DNA from: Pseudomonadota bacterium
Lineage (GTDB): Bacteria > Pseudomonadota > Gammaproteobacteria > Burkholderiales > Burkholderiaceae_C
Direction of reading: 5' to 3'
Length of the DNA: 54,239 nt
Assembly: GCA_018242005.1 (NCBI GenBank)
Contig: JAFECU010000281.1
Location: forward strand, 1-54,239
The position numbers and the translations under genes are program-made. The number at the start of each line of letters is the position of its first letter. Within the stretch, counting starts at the first letter, position 1. Below are positions 9,582 to 34,286 of the stretch, one piece after another. The notes beneath the pieces were generated by a model. The model was not told where the DNA came from. It did no database searches and saw nothing but the letters and a program-made list of their open reading frames with translations.

Positions 9582-10816
9582 GCCATCACATCATCCATGC
9601 AGGCGGCGCCCACCCTGCCCAGGCTGCTATCAATTGTGCTGAGGTGGGCCTGCCAGCTACAGGCCTCCTGCACGTATCGGCGTGCCTGACGTCCGAGCTC
9701 GGTGAGCTTGGCTGGCGACTCAAGCAGCGATTGCAGTGCATGGGCGAACTCTTGCGGCCCATCGGCTCGCAGCAGCCCCTGTTCTGCCGTGGCGCCAATG
9801 GCATCGGCGCAGCTGCTGACGGTGACCACGGCTTGCTCCATGGACATGGCCTCCAGAATCTTGTTCTGGATGCCGCGCGCCACGCGCAGGGGCGCGACCA
9901 CGGCGCTCGCATGCTGCAGGTAGGGCCGCACGTCGGGCACGGTGCCCGTGACGACGACATGCGGGCCCGCCAAGGCCTGCACCTGAGGCGATGGGCTGCG
10001 GCCCACCACGTAGAAGCGCAGCTGTGGGTTGCGCTCAATCAGTTTCGGCAGCATATCGGCCACAAACCAGCACACGCCATCGATGTTGGGCCAGTAGTCC
10101 ATGGCACCGGTGAAGACGACGGCCTGCTCGCCCGGCGCAAACGGATTCTCGCGTTGAGGGTCGGGTGCAAAAAAACCGGCATCCACTCCGTTGCCCATGG
10201 CTTGCACCCGCGCCGCGCATTCCGGGGCCTGAGACAGGAACAGCTCGGTTTCGTTGGGTGTCACAAAGTATGAACACTGCGCAGATGCCGCCATGGCGCG
10301 CTCGTACGCAAGAAGACGCCGGCCCTCGCGGCGATACAGCATGGACAGAGGCCAAGGGTGCGCGGGTGCGTATTGGGTCCACTTGGCAGAGTCCACATCC
10401 ACGAAGTCCACCAGCATGGGCACCTGCGGCAAAAGCAGTTGCGCGTATTGCGCCATGGCAGAGGAAAAAACCACGCAGGCCTTTATCTCGTGTGCGGCCG
10501 CCGTCTGTTGTACCCAGCGCCGCATGCCGGCGCTACGGTAATAGGCCAGCGTCAGCGCCTCTCCCGTGAGTACGGCAGTCAGGCTCTTGATCTTGGCAGT
10601 GGGTGCGTGAATGCGTTCCACATGCAGGTCGCGGCACATGCCCCGGACCGTCGGCAGGTGTTGCAGGTCATCGGGGTCGTCCACAAAGGTCCCCAGGAAC
10701 ACCTGGTGGTTCTTTTGCAAATGGCGCAGCAAATGGTAGGAGCGCACCTTGTCACCCTTGTTGGGCGGGTACGGCAGCCTATGCACCAGATAAAGAATAT
10801 TGCTTGCTGCAACCAT
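9578..10816 (-). CDS. XrtA/PEP-CTERM-associated sugar transferase, Stp1 type
   Basis: A 412-residue family 4 glycosyltransferase of the 'Stp1' PEP-CTERM/EpsH-associated group. The N-terminal signature is NILYLVHRLPYPPNKGDKVR, and the donor domain has QAMGNGVDAGFFAPD, AVVFTGAMDYWPNIDG and RGIQNKILEAMSMEQAVV. It starts at the ATG at 10816, 14 bases after the FemAB-like gene, and overlaps xrtA by four bases. In described loci stp1, stp2 and xrtA travel together, and the same set is seen here. Specific sugar unknown. Confidence 0.94.
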   Translation of the reverse strand: MVAASNILYLVHRLPYPPNKGDKVRSYHLLRHLQKNHQVFLGTFVDDPDDLQHLPTVRGMCRDLHVERIHAPTAKIKSLTAVLTGEALTLAYYRSAGMRRWVQQTAAAHEIKACVVFSSAMAQYAQLLLPQVPMLVDFVDVDSAKWTQYAPAHPWPLSMLYRREGRRLLAYERAMAASAQCSYFVTPNETELFLSQAPECAARVQAMGNGVDAGFFAPDPQRENPFAPGEQAVVFTGAMDYWPNIDGVCWFVADMLPKLIERNPQLRFYVVGRSPSPQVQALAGPHVVVTGTVPDVRPYLQHASAVVAPLRVARGIQNKILEAMSMEQAVVTVSSCADAIGATAEQGLLRADGPQEFAHALQSLLESPAKLTELGRQARRYVQEACSWQAHLSTIDSSLGRVGAACMDDVMA

Positions 10817-13854: not shown

Positions 13855-15546
13855 TCAAAACCGGTGTGTGATGAAACCCATGATGTCTGACTCGTCATAT
13901 TGATTGATACTTCCATCCGACAAAACGCGGCGCACCTGTATACCGACATTGGTGCGGCCGGTCACGAAGGTATTCCAACCGAGAATGTAGGTCCGAGTCC
14001 GGGTCGCCACCCCGGGTACGCTGCCCACGCTACGCATGTCGCCGAGGCTTGCACTGACCGATGAGTTGACCGTAAGGCGATGCGCAAGTATCAGATTCCA
14101 GCCTTGTTGGCGGATCTGTGTATTGGTGCCGAAGTCGTCACCCAGATTTAGCAGTCCACCAAGCTGGCGGCTATTGATGCGCGACACCACCATGGTGACC
14201 GAACTACGCTGCCCTAGTATTGCAAAAGAAAGCTGCTGAACCCGCTGCAGAATACTTTGCGACGTTAGGAAATCCTGAAACACCTGCATATTTGCAGGCA
14301 GGCCCCGACGGTCAATTTCAGCCTGCACGAGTTGCGCGCGTTGAATCGGATCGGACTCGACCCGGCTATAGAAACCATTCAGCAGGTCATACAGCGAACC
14401 CAGCGATGGCGATTGCGCGCCCAATCCATTGACAATGCGTCGGCGATCGATATAGCGCCATACGGTGCGTGAAGTACGATGTTCAAAGTCAACGTTATGC
14501 GACTCGCCAAAGTATCGGTTTTCACGCTCAAAGAACAGCCGCGTGCGCTCGGAAGGTTGCCAGTCGCCGCCAAAGCCTGTGATGCTGTGACTCTGCTGAT
14601 TGGGCGATAGCTGATTGGTCGATTCGACCCCGCCTATGCCAATCATGCGAAGATGAGGTGTGACGGCGTAGCTCAGGCGACCACGCAACGCCGTCGTATC
14701 GATGCGACGGCCAGGAGAAAAATCGGCGGTCTGCTGTGTTGCATCTACCGCCCACCAGACGATTTGCCCCGGACTTCTATTTCCTACGTGCAACAGCCCG
14801 TCATATACCGTGACCGCTGCGCGGTTATTGGCATCGGTGCGGGTGTCACGCACGCTGTAACGCGCCTCGTAGTCCATTTCAGAGCCAATGCGGCCCTTTA
14901 CGTACGGTGATATGGCAAAGGTCGATGTCTGCGCCAAATTGCTATTGGCGGGCGTAAAATCGCCCGGTGATCCAAAGACGGAAACGGGTTGCAACGAAAC
15001 GACGCCATAAAGATCAACGAAAAGCCAATTATCGACGGCTTCCACGACCGCGTTCGCACGCAGGTCATGCCAGAATTTATCGGAGGTCGTGTTCTTCCAG
15101 TAATGCGCGCTGCGCAGAGAATAGTCGGCAAACCCTCTGATGCGTGCGGTATTGCTCAACAGACGGAAGCCCGGAATCAGCTCGGTGATTTGATCGCTGG
15201 TATTTGTCGGATCAAGCCGCACGTTGCTCGTGACTGTGTGCCGCACCGTCAGCCGCGGTTCCAGCCAGAAGCCATGGCGGCCCGCATCGGTTGTCGCCTT
15301 TGAAGACTGGGGCAGAGCCTGAGACTGCTCCTGCGGCGGCGACAGGCCAAGTGGCGGCACCAACGTGCTCAATCCCAGCCCATCGGGCGGGGGGGGGATG
15401 GCCGTGCCAGGAGCTTGCAATGCCGTGTTGTCGACCGGCTGCGCCATTGCCACGCACGGCAAAAATGCCGAAGTAGCGATCAACAGCCGCATCGCGGCAG
15501 AAACGCGCTCCGTGCGGCGCAAGCGTGGTAGGTGCGCAAAACCCAT
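13855..15546 (-). CDS. PEP-CTERM system-associated outer-membrane beta-barrel protein
   Basis: About 563 residues with an arginine-bearing N-terminus and a hydrophobic signal segment (MRLLIATSAFLPCVAMAQ) starting around residue 19. The mature part is rich in alternating aromatic strands (RHTVTSNVRLDP, YEARYSVRDTRTD, RTRLFFERENRYFGES) and ends in Phe (ESDIMGFITHRF), as outer-membrane barrels do. It matches the conserved hypothetical group found beside the tyrosine kinase in XrtA loci, a candidate secretion channel analogous to capsule/alginate porins. The ATG at 15546 has GAGGTG six bases upstream; a GTG at 15555 is also possible. The call rests on barrel character and position. Confidence 0.88.
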   Translation of the reverse strand: MGFAHLPRLRRTERVSAAMRLLIATSAFLPCVAMAQPVDNTALQAPGTAIPPPPDGLGLSTLVPPLGLSPPQEQSQALPQSSKATTDAGRHGFWLEPRLTVRHTVTSNVRLDPTNTSDQITELIPGFRLLSNTARIRGFADYSLRSAHYWKNTTSDKFWHDLRANAVVEAVDNWLFVDLYGVVSLQPVSVFGSPGDFTPANSNLAQTSTFAISPYVKGRIGSEMDYEARYSVRDTRTDANNRAAVTVYDGLLHVGNRSPGQIVWWAVDATQQTADFSPGRRIDTTALRGRLSYAVTPHLRMIGIGGVESTNQLSPNQQSHSITGFGGDWQPSERTRLFFERENRYFGESHNVDFEHRTSRTVWRYIDRRRIVNGLGAQSPSLGSLYDLLNGFYSRVESDPIQRAQLVQAEIDRRGLPANMQVFQDFLTSQSILQRVQQLSFAILGQRSSVTMVVSRINSRQLGGLLNLGDDFGTNTQIRQQGWNLILAHRLTVNSSVSASLGDMRSVGSVPGVATRTRTYILGWNTFVTGRTNVGIQVRRVLSDGSINQYDESDIMGFITHRF

Positions 15547-32536: not shown

Positions 32537-32753
32537 TACTACCCCAGCAGTGAGTGCCCAGCGATCCCACATTCGCGCCCGCTGACCTTGCCCTTGTTTT
32601 GGGGAGTTCCTGCCCCGCAGCTCACGTGAGCTTTCTTGCCGCGCCTCGTACCAGCGCTGGTCGTGTTGCCACGTCGTAGCGGTGGGGCTGCGCCACGAAG
32701 CTCACCGCCGTGAACAAGGTAAGTGGCGCCGCCTGGGGCCGATGGTGGATGAA
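32537..32753. other. Non-coding stretch between liuR and the split tRNA
   Basis: 217 bases between the 5' side of liuR and the 3' end of the tRNA, both on the minus strand. Short GC-rich dyads are present (CAGCTCACGTGAGCT near 32615, CCAGCGCTGG near 32650). The liuR promoter should lie here. No open frame with coding character or clear terminator for the tRNA was found. Confidence 0.5.
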
Positions 32754-33081
32754 TGGTAGGCCGTGCTGGGCTCGAACCAGCGACCAAAGGATTCAAGTTT
32801 GCGTGGGTTTCCCCACTCCTTGGACTATCTCACCGCCCACAGCCGAACTGTTGGGGCGCCGGGCGCTCATGGGACGCTTATCGGATGGGCTCCTCACGTC
32901 CTAGTCTCTGCACCTTCCCGCCTACCGGTCCTGCGACCTGCCTTTCGGCGGGCTTGGCTCAAGGTTGCCATGGCTTGCGCTGTAGGGTTCCTTGAATTCA
33001 CCCGGTTTTCCAATGAGGCTCTCGCCCCATGGTCACCATTTTTGATGAGTCCTCTGCTCTAACCAACTGAGCTAACGGCCC
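32754..33081 (-). tRNA. tRNA with CAU anticodon (probably tRNA-Ile2), interrupted by a group I intron
   Basis: The 5' exon (33081-33045, 37 nt) begins GGGCCGTTAGCTCAGTTGG and ends in GGACTCAT, the anticodon CAT being at 33047-33045. The 3' exon (32793-32754, 40 nt) begins AATCCTTTGGTCG, contains the T-arm GCTGG-TTCGAGC-CCAGC and ends in an encoded CCA. Joined, they give a full 77-nt cloverleaf: acceptor GGGCCGT/ACGGCCT, D arm GCTC/GAGC, anticodon stem GAGGA/TCCTT. The first acceptor pair is G-U. The TTTGGTCGCTGG part resembles tRNA-Ile2, whose C34 is changed to lysidine by TilS; elongator tRNA-Met is the alternative. The 251-nt insertion sits after position 36. Confidence 0.93.
32794..33044 (-). 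ncRNA. Group I self-splicing intron (IC3, Azoarcus type) in the tRNA anticodon loop
   Basis: 251 nt, without an ORF. The hallmarks are in order on the minus strand. An internal guide GTGA (33036-33033) pairs with the exon end TCAT, with the required G-U at the splice site. P4 is TCAAGG (32995-32990) with CCTTGA (32964-32959), followed by GAGCCAAGCC. The P7 strands are GACTA in GTGCAGAGACTAG (32906-32902) and TAGTC in GAGATAGTCC (32827-32823). P9 is GTGGG-GAAA-CCCAC (32816-32803). The terminal G is at 32794. These blocks match what I recall of the Azoarcus tRNA-Ile(CAU) ribozyme, including the P9 GAAA tetraloop, but the intron is about 45 nt longer, mostly in the P8 region. Confidence 0.93.
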
Positions 33082-33166
33082 ATTCATACCAAAACCATCA
33101 TTGTGCCTGCTCGGCATGCGCCTTACGCACGCCGACCAAGCCTATTTCATCTCCAGTGGATCGACC

Positions 33167-33201
33167 ATGAGTCCTCCGCTCCATCAACTGAGCGAACCCT
33201 C
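33167..33201 (-). pseudogene. Decayed 5' half of a tRNA
   Basis: Read on the minus strand, GGGTTCGCTCAGTTGATGG then AGCGGAGGACTCAT closely follows the 5' exon of the neighbouring split tRNA (D-arm, anticodon stem, CAT). It stops at the same anticodon position and continues into GGTCGATCC, which may be a T-loop remnant. No acceptor stem or 3' half is present. It looks like a relic of a duplicated tRNA gene, 85 bases upstream of the intact one. The rest of the gap to hrcA shows nothing recognisable. Confidence 0.6.
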
Positions 33202-33253
33202 ATGAGGCGCCAGCCGCGCCAAATGCGCCGTGCACAACCGCGCATTGTATGCG

Positions 33254-34258
33254 TTACTTGTGGTGGCTCAGGGCGGTGGACACCAGTTTGGAGGTGATGT
33301 CCACGATCTGAATCATGCGGTCGTAGGGCATGCGCGTGGGGCCTATCACTCCCAGGGTGCCGACCACCTGGCCGTCCACCTCGTAGGGCGCGCTGACCAC
33401 GGATAGCTCCTCGAAAGGCACGACCTGGCTTTCGCCGCCGATAAAGATGCGCACGCCCTCGGCGCGGCTGGAGATGTCCAGCAGGCGCAGGATCTGCGTC
33501 TTTTGCTCGAACAGGTCGAAGGCCCGGCGCAGGTGGCTCATGTCGCCCGAAAAGTCGCTCACGGACAGAAGGTTGCGCTCGCCAGAGAATACAACCTCGT
33601 CCCGCGATTCGGACATGGCCTCGGTACTCACGCTCACGGCCGCCTGCATCAGCACCGCGATCTCGCCGCGCAGCCTGTCCACCTCCAGCCTGAGCCGCTC
33701 GCGCACCTGCTCCATGGCCAGGCCGGCATAGTGGGCGTTGAGGAAGTTGGCGGCCTCCACCAGCTGCGACTGGGTGTAGTCGGACTCGGTGAACAGCACA
33801 CGATTTTGCACATCGCCGTCGGGCGAGACGATGATGACCAATAGCCGCCTCTCCGACAGGCGCAAAAACTCGATATGCCGGAACACCGAGGCGCGGCGCG
33901 GCGCCATGACCACGCCCACGAACTGCGACAGGCTGGACAGCAGATGCGCGGCATTGGCGATGACCTTCTGCGGCTGCTCGGGCTTGATCTGCAGGGCCGG
34001 CAGCTGCTCCTGCTGGACCGTGAGCATGGTGTCCACAAACAAGCGATAGCCCTTGGCCGTGGGCACCCGGCCGGCAGAGGTATGGGGGCTCGCAATAAGC
34101 CCCAGCTCCTCAAGGTCTGCCATCACGTTGCGTATGGTGGCAGGAGACAATTCAAGGCCCGATGCCCGCGACAAGGTTCTGGAGCCCACCGGCTGCCCGT
34201 CGGCGATGTAGCGCTCGACCAGAGCCTTGAGCAACAACTTGGAGCGGTCATCCAGCAT
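33254..34258 (-). CDS. hrcA: Heat-inducible transcription repressor HrcA
   Basis: 334-residue repressor of groE/dnaK operons that binds CIRCE and is kept active by GroEL. The N-terminal winged helix ([38 protein letters not shown]) is followed by [20 protein letters not shown], a family signature, then the GAF-like dimerisation domain ([13 protein letters not shown]) and [20 protein letters not shown]. The start is the ATG at 34258; a TTG directly before it is in frame. It is divergent from nadK, with 28 bases between. No CIRCE inverted repeat is visible near it, so it is probably not autoregulated through CIRCE. Confidence 0.96.
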
Positions 34259-34286
34259 CAAGCCATTTTAATGATGTAATTTCCGC

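Follow-up and report, generated by a model that had tools for sequence, protein, structure and literature searches.

The group I intron of the tRNA-Ile(CAU) gene of Azoarcus sp. BH72 is of type IC3 and 205 nt long. To our knowledge, there is no settled answer to why bacterial tRNA genes carry self-splicing introns. The Azoarcus intron is named as a pre-tRNA-Ile intron in the available part of PMC3984707. Canonical tRNA-targeting islands, as the accessible text on Islander describes them (PMC4383910), are characterized by a tyrosine integrase, a tRNA gene as attB, a crossover in the anticodon loop and a displaced fragment at the far end, and they restore the disrupted tRNA. In the archaeal Caldiarchaeum, the available part of PMC3293823 describes a tRNA-Thr disrupted by a mobile element that brings in an archaeal tRNA intron through an intron-containing attP, with possible protection against further integration. 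The same 2012 text reports the Randau-Soll proposal, made for archaea, that introns block integration at attB, and states that before its own case no direct evidence linked tRNA introns and integrating elements. Finally, the group I introns of tmRNA lie in the loop of a tRNA-like gene that is also targeted by islands (PMC11915505); the portion of that paper at hand contains no description of them as island-carried replacements.

The locus considered here belongs to a window of 54,239 nt, i.e., the whole stretch of DNA that was analysed. Its comparison with these systems leads to the following points: (i) with Azoarcus, taken by its description, it shares the tRNA and the group I core, and differs from it by an additional P7.1 hairpin and by the transport of this intron type on integrative islands; (ii) these islands have the integrase, attB, crossover site and displaced fragment of the Islander type, whereas they leave the native tRNA broken and bring along an intron-split gene of their own (the restoring habit being that of the consulted part of PMC4383910); (iii) as in the Caldiarchaeum case, in the form given by the part of PMC3293823 at hand, a mobile element brings an intron into a tRNA, but here the intron is of group I, its carrier is a complete replacement gene distinct from the native one, and many bacterial genomes have it; (iv) as in the tmRNA introns of the PMC11915505 excerpt, the intron sits in the loop of a gene that islands target. 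Among the best matches in the open-licence literature (titles and abstract openings), no description of an island carrying an intron-split tRNA was found.

In what follows, nt are counted along the 77-nt tRNA gene (CAT is nt 35-37), while U36, C4 and G69 are standard tRNA numbers. G120 is a complete genome of another genus with nearly the same split gene. The features of the locus are:

33254..34261, minus strand: hrcA, which also precedes tRNA-Ile2 in the same-genus genomes inspected
33244..33249, minus strand: TACAAT, putative -10-like element just past hrcA, read from the sequence
33167..33197, minus strand: decayed 5' half of the native tRNA-Ile2, matching nt 6-37, 85 nt upstream of the split gene
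33082..33157, minus strand: remnant of the element leader, of which 76 nt align with the leader of the G120 island at a score of 122 (no shuffle control)
33045..33081, minus strand: 5' exon of tRNA-Ile2(CAU), first 37 nt, through the anticodon CAT inclusive
33033..33048, minus strand: P1, formed by exon UCAU and the internal guide, with a U.G wobble at the 5' splice site in 32 of 32 aligned introns
32794..33044, minus strand: group I intron, 251 nt, starting after U36, last base G, assigned by RF00028 (68.4 bits) and covariation
32872..32901, minus strand: extra hairpin at the P7.1 position, between the P7 5' strand and the P3 3' strand
32803..32816, minus strand: P9 hairpin with GAAA loop, both-side changes in 5 of 5 pairs
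32754..32793, minus strand: 3' exon of tRNA-Ile2 with CCA, read from the sequence and by ARAGORN with introns allowed
32674..32753, minus strand: remnant of the element 3' of the split tRNA, into the element's first gene (Trans_reg_dom-like), from the G120 island alignment

The gene names used here and below are presumably hrcA, nadK and recN, as recognised from the proteins and not by family search. In same-genus genomes TACAAT is likewise read in the stretch that separates hrcA from the intact tRNA.

When joined, the exons (33081-33045 and 32793-32754) form a 77-nt cloverleaf whose anticodon is CAT and whose CCA is encoded, which bears out the claim of the sequence-only reading that 251 nt are to be removed from a CAU tRNA. 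Its assignment of the insert to group I is confirmed by the covariance-model check: RF00028 matches 33070-32801 on the minus strand, over model positions 1-253 of 253, with 68.4 bits vs. a gathering score of 50 (E 2.7e-15). No other RF00028 match was found in the window genome, a 3.96-Mb draft assembly of 313 contigs with a completeness of 91%. As had been expected of standard tRNA calling, default ARAGORN (without introns) does not call the gene; with introns allowed the same 251-nt insert is proposed, but with a shifted splice site and under the name tRNA-Gln(TTG). The intron contains no homing endonuclease gene, i.e., no sense-strand frame of 80 aa or more inside the 251 nt. The antisense reading frames over it (32753-32995 and 32763-33062, plus strand) were taken as artefacts.

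A tRNA for AUA (or AUG) had been announced as missing apart from this gene; the first of these alternatives is supported and the second disfavoured. Intact tRNA-Ile2 copies, located after hrcA in same-genus genomes, are 90-92% identical to the spliced window tRNA, tilS is present in the window genome (155 bits), and the search for another tRNA-Ile2 that had been suggested, made with the spliced tRNA, found none in this draft (91% complete). Since these three observations agree, the split gene is, judged on its sequence, tRNA-Ile2 rather than Met; CAU anticodon, similarity and tilS are together those of a lysidine-type tRNA. The tRNA search of the window genome gave 32 matches, of which 30 were read through ARAGORN, the only CAU one being an initiator by sequence. 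For G120, 30 of 46 matches were read; the two with CAU are elongator and initiator Met by sequence, and a search of this complete genome with tRNA-Ile2 found no further copy. An identity as tRNA-Met is thus disfavoured both by the similarity to intact tRNA-Ile2 and by the separate elongator Met of G120. ATA codons are used in the window by hrcA (2), nadK (2) and recN (3).

For the structure, 32 introns of the window type were aligned with short exon ends; the pairing was written from the window sequence and then counted. The pattern by which the 32 were picked required CAT before the intron and G at its end, P1 pairing being not required. In this alignment 99.3% of 2071 cells pair and 27 of 65 pairs are changed on both sides. 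On each of five measures the observed value lies above those of all 500 shuffles, and pairing falls to 32-42% when the partner is slid by 1-3 columns. Conservation with covariation holds for the set P3, P4, P6, P7, P8 and P9; P1, P5, the two P6 pairs and P7 are invariant and thus contribute no covariation. The terminal G precedes AATCC in 32/32 introns. The details listed beforehand for the window intron, i.e., the U.G pair of the guide at the 5' splice site, P4, P7 (GACTA/TAGTC), the P9 GAAA hairpin and the terminal G, are all present. That it is an active ribozyme, as also proposed, appears well supported by the covariation, and it would be expected to splice. On the contrary, the extra length had been placed wrongly in P8: it is the hairpin 32901-32872, at P7.1, whose outer helix has both-side changes in 3/5 pairs with 99.4% of cells paired. 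Shorter introns (~202-217 nt), which we take to be Azoarcus-like from their appearance, occupy the same tRNA-Ile2 site in four other family genomes (L038-L041) and by eye have no hairpin of the P7.1 type.

The overall interpretation given by the sequence-only reading is only partly retained: Azoarcus was its sole comparison, and it overlooked both the mobile-element context and the decayed native copy, which lies 85 nt upstream. Among eight same-genus genomes searched, six have one intact tRNA-Ile2, while the window genome and G153 have only split copies. The acceptor pair is G4-C69 in the six intact copies vs. C4-G69 in the split copies of the window genome and G153. The decayed native half scores 41, against a maximum of 25 in 300 shuffles and of 31 in 200 shuffles, and its position is about that of the intact gene in same-genus genomes. 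Out of 36 loci given, 28 were testable for such a half, i.e., had the full split gene and at least 300 nt upstream (six lacked the full split tRNA and two had less than 300 nt). A native 5' half exceeding all 200 shuffles is found upstream at 14 of these 28 loci; within 300 nt upstream the other 14, G153 among them, give nothing significant. None of the six intron-free congener controls is above all 200 shuffles, one being close (3/200 as high). Two matches were not counted: that of G153 (24 vs. a shuffle maximum of 25, 7/300 as high; 10/200 as high in the second test), and a 28-point match to native tRNA at L034, which lies in the apparent end of hrcA and for which the 300-nt test of the same genome gave nothing.

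Element remnants lie on both sides of the split gene. Besides the leader remnant, positions 32760-32674 align to the end of the split tRNA and the first island gene of G120 with a score of 104 (tRNA end included), the maximum of 200 shuffles being 30; the Trans_reg_dom-like domain of this first gene is weak, below cut-off. The window genome yielded neither a native 3' half nor, at E 1e-100, a close relative of the integrase. Over 328 bp the split gene shares 99.1% identity with that of G120, a member of another genus, vs. 79.8% for hrcA, 76.9% for nadK and 72.4% for recN. The congener G153 has the opposite pattern when compared with the window (hrcA 88.6%, split gene only 80.8%), and its copy apparently comes from a separate event. 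Since the flanks match the G120 element and the identities are distributed in this manner, the window locus is best read as the stub of a G120-type island of which the native half has decayed, the body has been lost and the replacement tRNA has been kept.

In G120 and seven other genomes an island of 19-61 kb lies inside the native tRNA-Ile2 at CTCATAATC (nt 33-41, the core at the island ends), with the integrase at one end and the intron-split tRNA usually near the opposite one. In G120 the native gene is cut into nt 1-41 (473943-473983) and nt 33-77 (495382-495426), same strand, 21.4 kb apart, and the intron-split tRNA (474205-474532) is just within the left island end. G123 has the same arrangement across 22.3 kb. 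The intron pattern gave 36 named loci, 31 of them with tRNA-Ile2 exons; three in already searched genomes were set aside and 28 genomes were searched whole, one of which (G163) appears to be G135 again. Both native halves are on one contig, with the split gene between them, in at least 5 of these 28 further genomes:

G162: halves 22.7 kb apart, one contig
G171 (Rhodoferax bucti): halves 18.9 kb apart, one contig
G181 (Curvibacter sp. HBC28): halves 26.2 kb apart, one contig
G177 (Comamonas testosteroni SWCO2): halves 60 kb apart, split gene 36 kb from the 5' half
G179: halves 61 kb apart, one contig

In at least three more of the 28 (G155, G160, G159) the halves are on different contigs. G165 has a shorter 5' piece with 3' pieces elsewhere, and for G158 and G168 there is a 5' piece only among the matches listed. 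Outside this set, G390 has a pair of halves ~30 kb apart on one contig, and G031 a pair on different contigs.

The ends of the islands are precise. The left end AAGAGGCC following the core is common to eight genomes, with different host tRNAs. Between the first base of the native 5' half and that of the split gene there are 231-275 bp (261-265 bp in 8/11). The 5' exon of the split gene is identical in 10/11 islands, with a one-base difference in G155. The native halves, when joined, give a CAT tRNA in 10/10 islands; the ends as they stand give one in 0/10, i.e., the target tRNA is regenerated at neither end. In the relatives an integrase is present and the target is directly repeated at the two ends; in the window only remnants are seen. 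In G120 and G123 a 449-aa tyrosine integrase (PF00589 with PF13356) is beside the right end. All eight further right ends have a relative with 63-78% identity, two of these being cut by the end of the stretch; for G031 the identity is 42%. Two islands contain anti-phage genes, that of G120 Gabija and that of G123 a type I restriction system.

Very probably, then, the split gene of the window is not an old resident and arrived in an integrative island targeting tRNA-Ile2 at CTCATAATC. The tyrosine integrase would recombine at this site, in the anticodon arm of the host tRNA-Ile2; integration would divide the native gene, with nt 1-41 at one island end as the 5' half and nt 33-77 at the other as the 3' half. 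As seen in the sequences, the target is broken and a substitute is provided: the island does not regenerate the tRNA that it interrupts and carries a second, complete tRNA-Ile2, usually ~220 bp inward of the left end. As the intron of this replacement lies between CTCAT and AATC, i.e., within the shared core, the replacement has no contiguous core. In the window, the island body has been lost and the native 5' half persists only in decayed form; the split gene is then the sole tRNA-Ile2 found, and presumably the one that feeds translation.

Intron-split tRNA-Ile2 extends beyond these islands and is common outside the family. In a class-wide sample RF00028 matches were obtained in 56/369 genomes. 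For the best 30 class-wide loci ARAGORN resolved 26 intron tRNAs, and 18/26 are tRNA-Ile2 by exon reading. No convincing native fragment was found within the stretch of at most 1.5 kb examined on each side of these 18 genes (best 30 loci). Intron-split tRNA-Ile2 is therefore wider than the island habit, and probably older, the island having taken up a known kind of gene.

An intron-blind search was also made, i.e., 399 family genomes were searched with the integrase (E 1e-100 or better). It was found in six: G120, G123, G300 (whose coordinates are the same as those of G181), G390, G031 and G014. The first five have a broken native gene and an intron-split replacement. In G031 a different intron is inserted between nt 34 and 35. 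G014 shares the integrase and the right end but has an intact tRNA at the left, i.e., the classical restoring arrangement in which the target is regenerated at one end, and no intron match. Piscinibacter aquaticus (G166) has an intact tRNA-Ile2 and, elsewhere, a split one with neither leader nor integrase within the 10 kb examined.

These data bear on the role of the intron. The islands may be real and the intron a mere passenger, captured by chance with a split tRNA-Ile2 where any tRNA-Ile2 copy would have served. Such a capture is plausible because split tRNA-Ile2 is common in the class, and G014, with its close integrase beside an intact, intron-free tRNA, speaks in the same direction. Three facts do not: the split copy in five of the six integrase-bearing genomes; the intron of G031, which breaks the core as well from a place three nucleotides away from the usual one; and the split copies that accompany an element at tRNA-Arg(CCU) and perhaps one at tRNA-Thr(UGU). 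The passenger explanation falls just short of an even chance. The other possibility, which we hold tentatively and below even confidence, is that the ribozyme acts as a recombination shield. The island would break an essential tRNA and the host would depend on the replacement; the intron-split core would guard the latter against the island's own integrase and against competing elements that share the target, and self-splicing would hide the interruption. This device would have arisen more than once, given the two introns at Ile2 and the elements at tRNA-Arg(CCU) and perhaps tRNA-Thr(UGU). On present evidence the two explanations are about equally likely. A shield would fit the Randau-Soll proposal as the available text of PMC3293823 gives it.

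It is very unlikely that the window simply has a vertically inherited, Azoarcus-like group I intron in tRNA-Ile(CAU), with no mobile element at its locus. The same intron position is indeed widespread in the class, and half of the testable loci have no nearby native fragment. However, six of the eight same-genus genomes have an intact gene and no intron, the split gene is nearly identical to a copy of another genus whose hrcA is much less so, and a native fossil and element remnants on both sides are found.

Even less probable is an arrival by homing or reverse splicing into the native tRNA-Ile2, the upstream fragment being then due to chance or a duplicated tRNA piece. Group I introns can move without DNA elements and the window fragment is short, but the split gene has its own exons (C4-G69 vs. 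G4-C69 in the six intact same-genus copies), with the same 5' exon in 10/11 islands despite differing native tRNAs; in most islands a native half, cut at nt 41, lies a few hundred bp away from it, and on contigs that contain both native halves these are 19-61 kb apart. Equally improbable is a dead remnant with AUA read by another tRNA: the surrounding element is decayed and the genome incomplete, but the gene is intact in its exons, splice sites and core, the searches gave no other tRNA-Ile2, tilS is present, and hrcA, nadK and recN contain ATA codons.

With arrival in an island as the preferred reading, a bacterial island family is available with exact ends, an integrase, empty sites, broken native genes and an intron inside the core; the idea of tRNA protection is therefore directly testable. 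The islands also show a way for an element to become hard to lose. Island finders relying on a restored tRNA and tRNA callers ignoring group I introns are expected to miss them.

Other arrangements were observed at tRNA-Ile2. In G029 (L113:6789-13740) a native 5' half is followed by three tandem 3' halves, with a split tRNA-Ile2 inside on the opposite strand; the ends are unlike those of the other islands. In G012 (G012:C51:3224-3266 and L121, i.e., G012:C74) a tRNA-Ile2 with the shorter intron is beside a 544-aa integrase (PF13356, PF00589) and a native 3' half, the native 5' half being on another contig. In the intron-free congener G142 (L116, 9350-10294 in tRNA orientation) the intact tRNA-Ile2 is accompanied, ~820 bp further on, by a second 3' part (nt 31-77), an arrangement that resembles a small classical element at the same site.

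Outside tRNA-Ile2, G075 (L205:9619-14620) has a native 5' half (9619-9654, 89%) 226 bp upstream of a split tRNA-Arg(CCU) (9845-10135) and a native 3' half (14572-14620) 4.4 kb downstream. The tRNA is Arg(CCU) by reading, the shifted splice site of ARAGORN giving ACG. Between the halves are a weakly DndB-like gene and a DNA methyltransferase gene, and no integrase was recognised among the three genes scanned there. In G111 (L204:9994-10426) a second, native-looking 3' half lies ~100 bp past a split tRNA-Thr(UGU). A weak test found no such fragments at the non-Ile2 loci L206 (at a contig end), L207 (where the query was a short 3' exon piece) and L208. G020 contains two split tRNAs, Ile2 and Arg(CCU), ~11 kb apart (L037, L047). 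Five of the 36 pattern hits (L138, L142, L147, L160 and L161) are Chloroflexi, Anaerolineae and Armatimonadetes contigs with the intron-core pattern; they were left out as they have no tRNA-Ile2 exons.

Viral contigs gave no exact match to the intron pattern, and the single match among plasmids, the 5' exon of an ordinary intact tRNA, was rejected. Phage introns known by 2014 were all in protein genes, according to the available part of a review of that year (PMC3984707). The jumbo Klebsiella phage Muenster (MT708547.1, L167:2501-2800) has a tRNA-Ile2 split by a similar group I intron (RF00028, 104.1 bits), which is absent from the annotated features; three more Klebsiella phage records match the same query stretch. 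The Moraxella phages Mcat4 (L168:1214-1253) and Mcat5 (L171:3001-3040) carry a truncated tRNA-Ile2 (about nt 1-40), with nearly the same cut in the anticodon arm.
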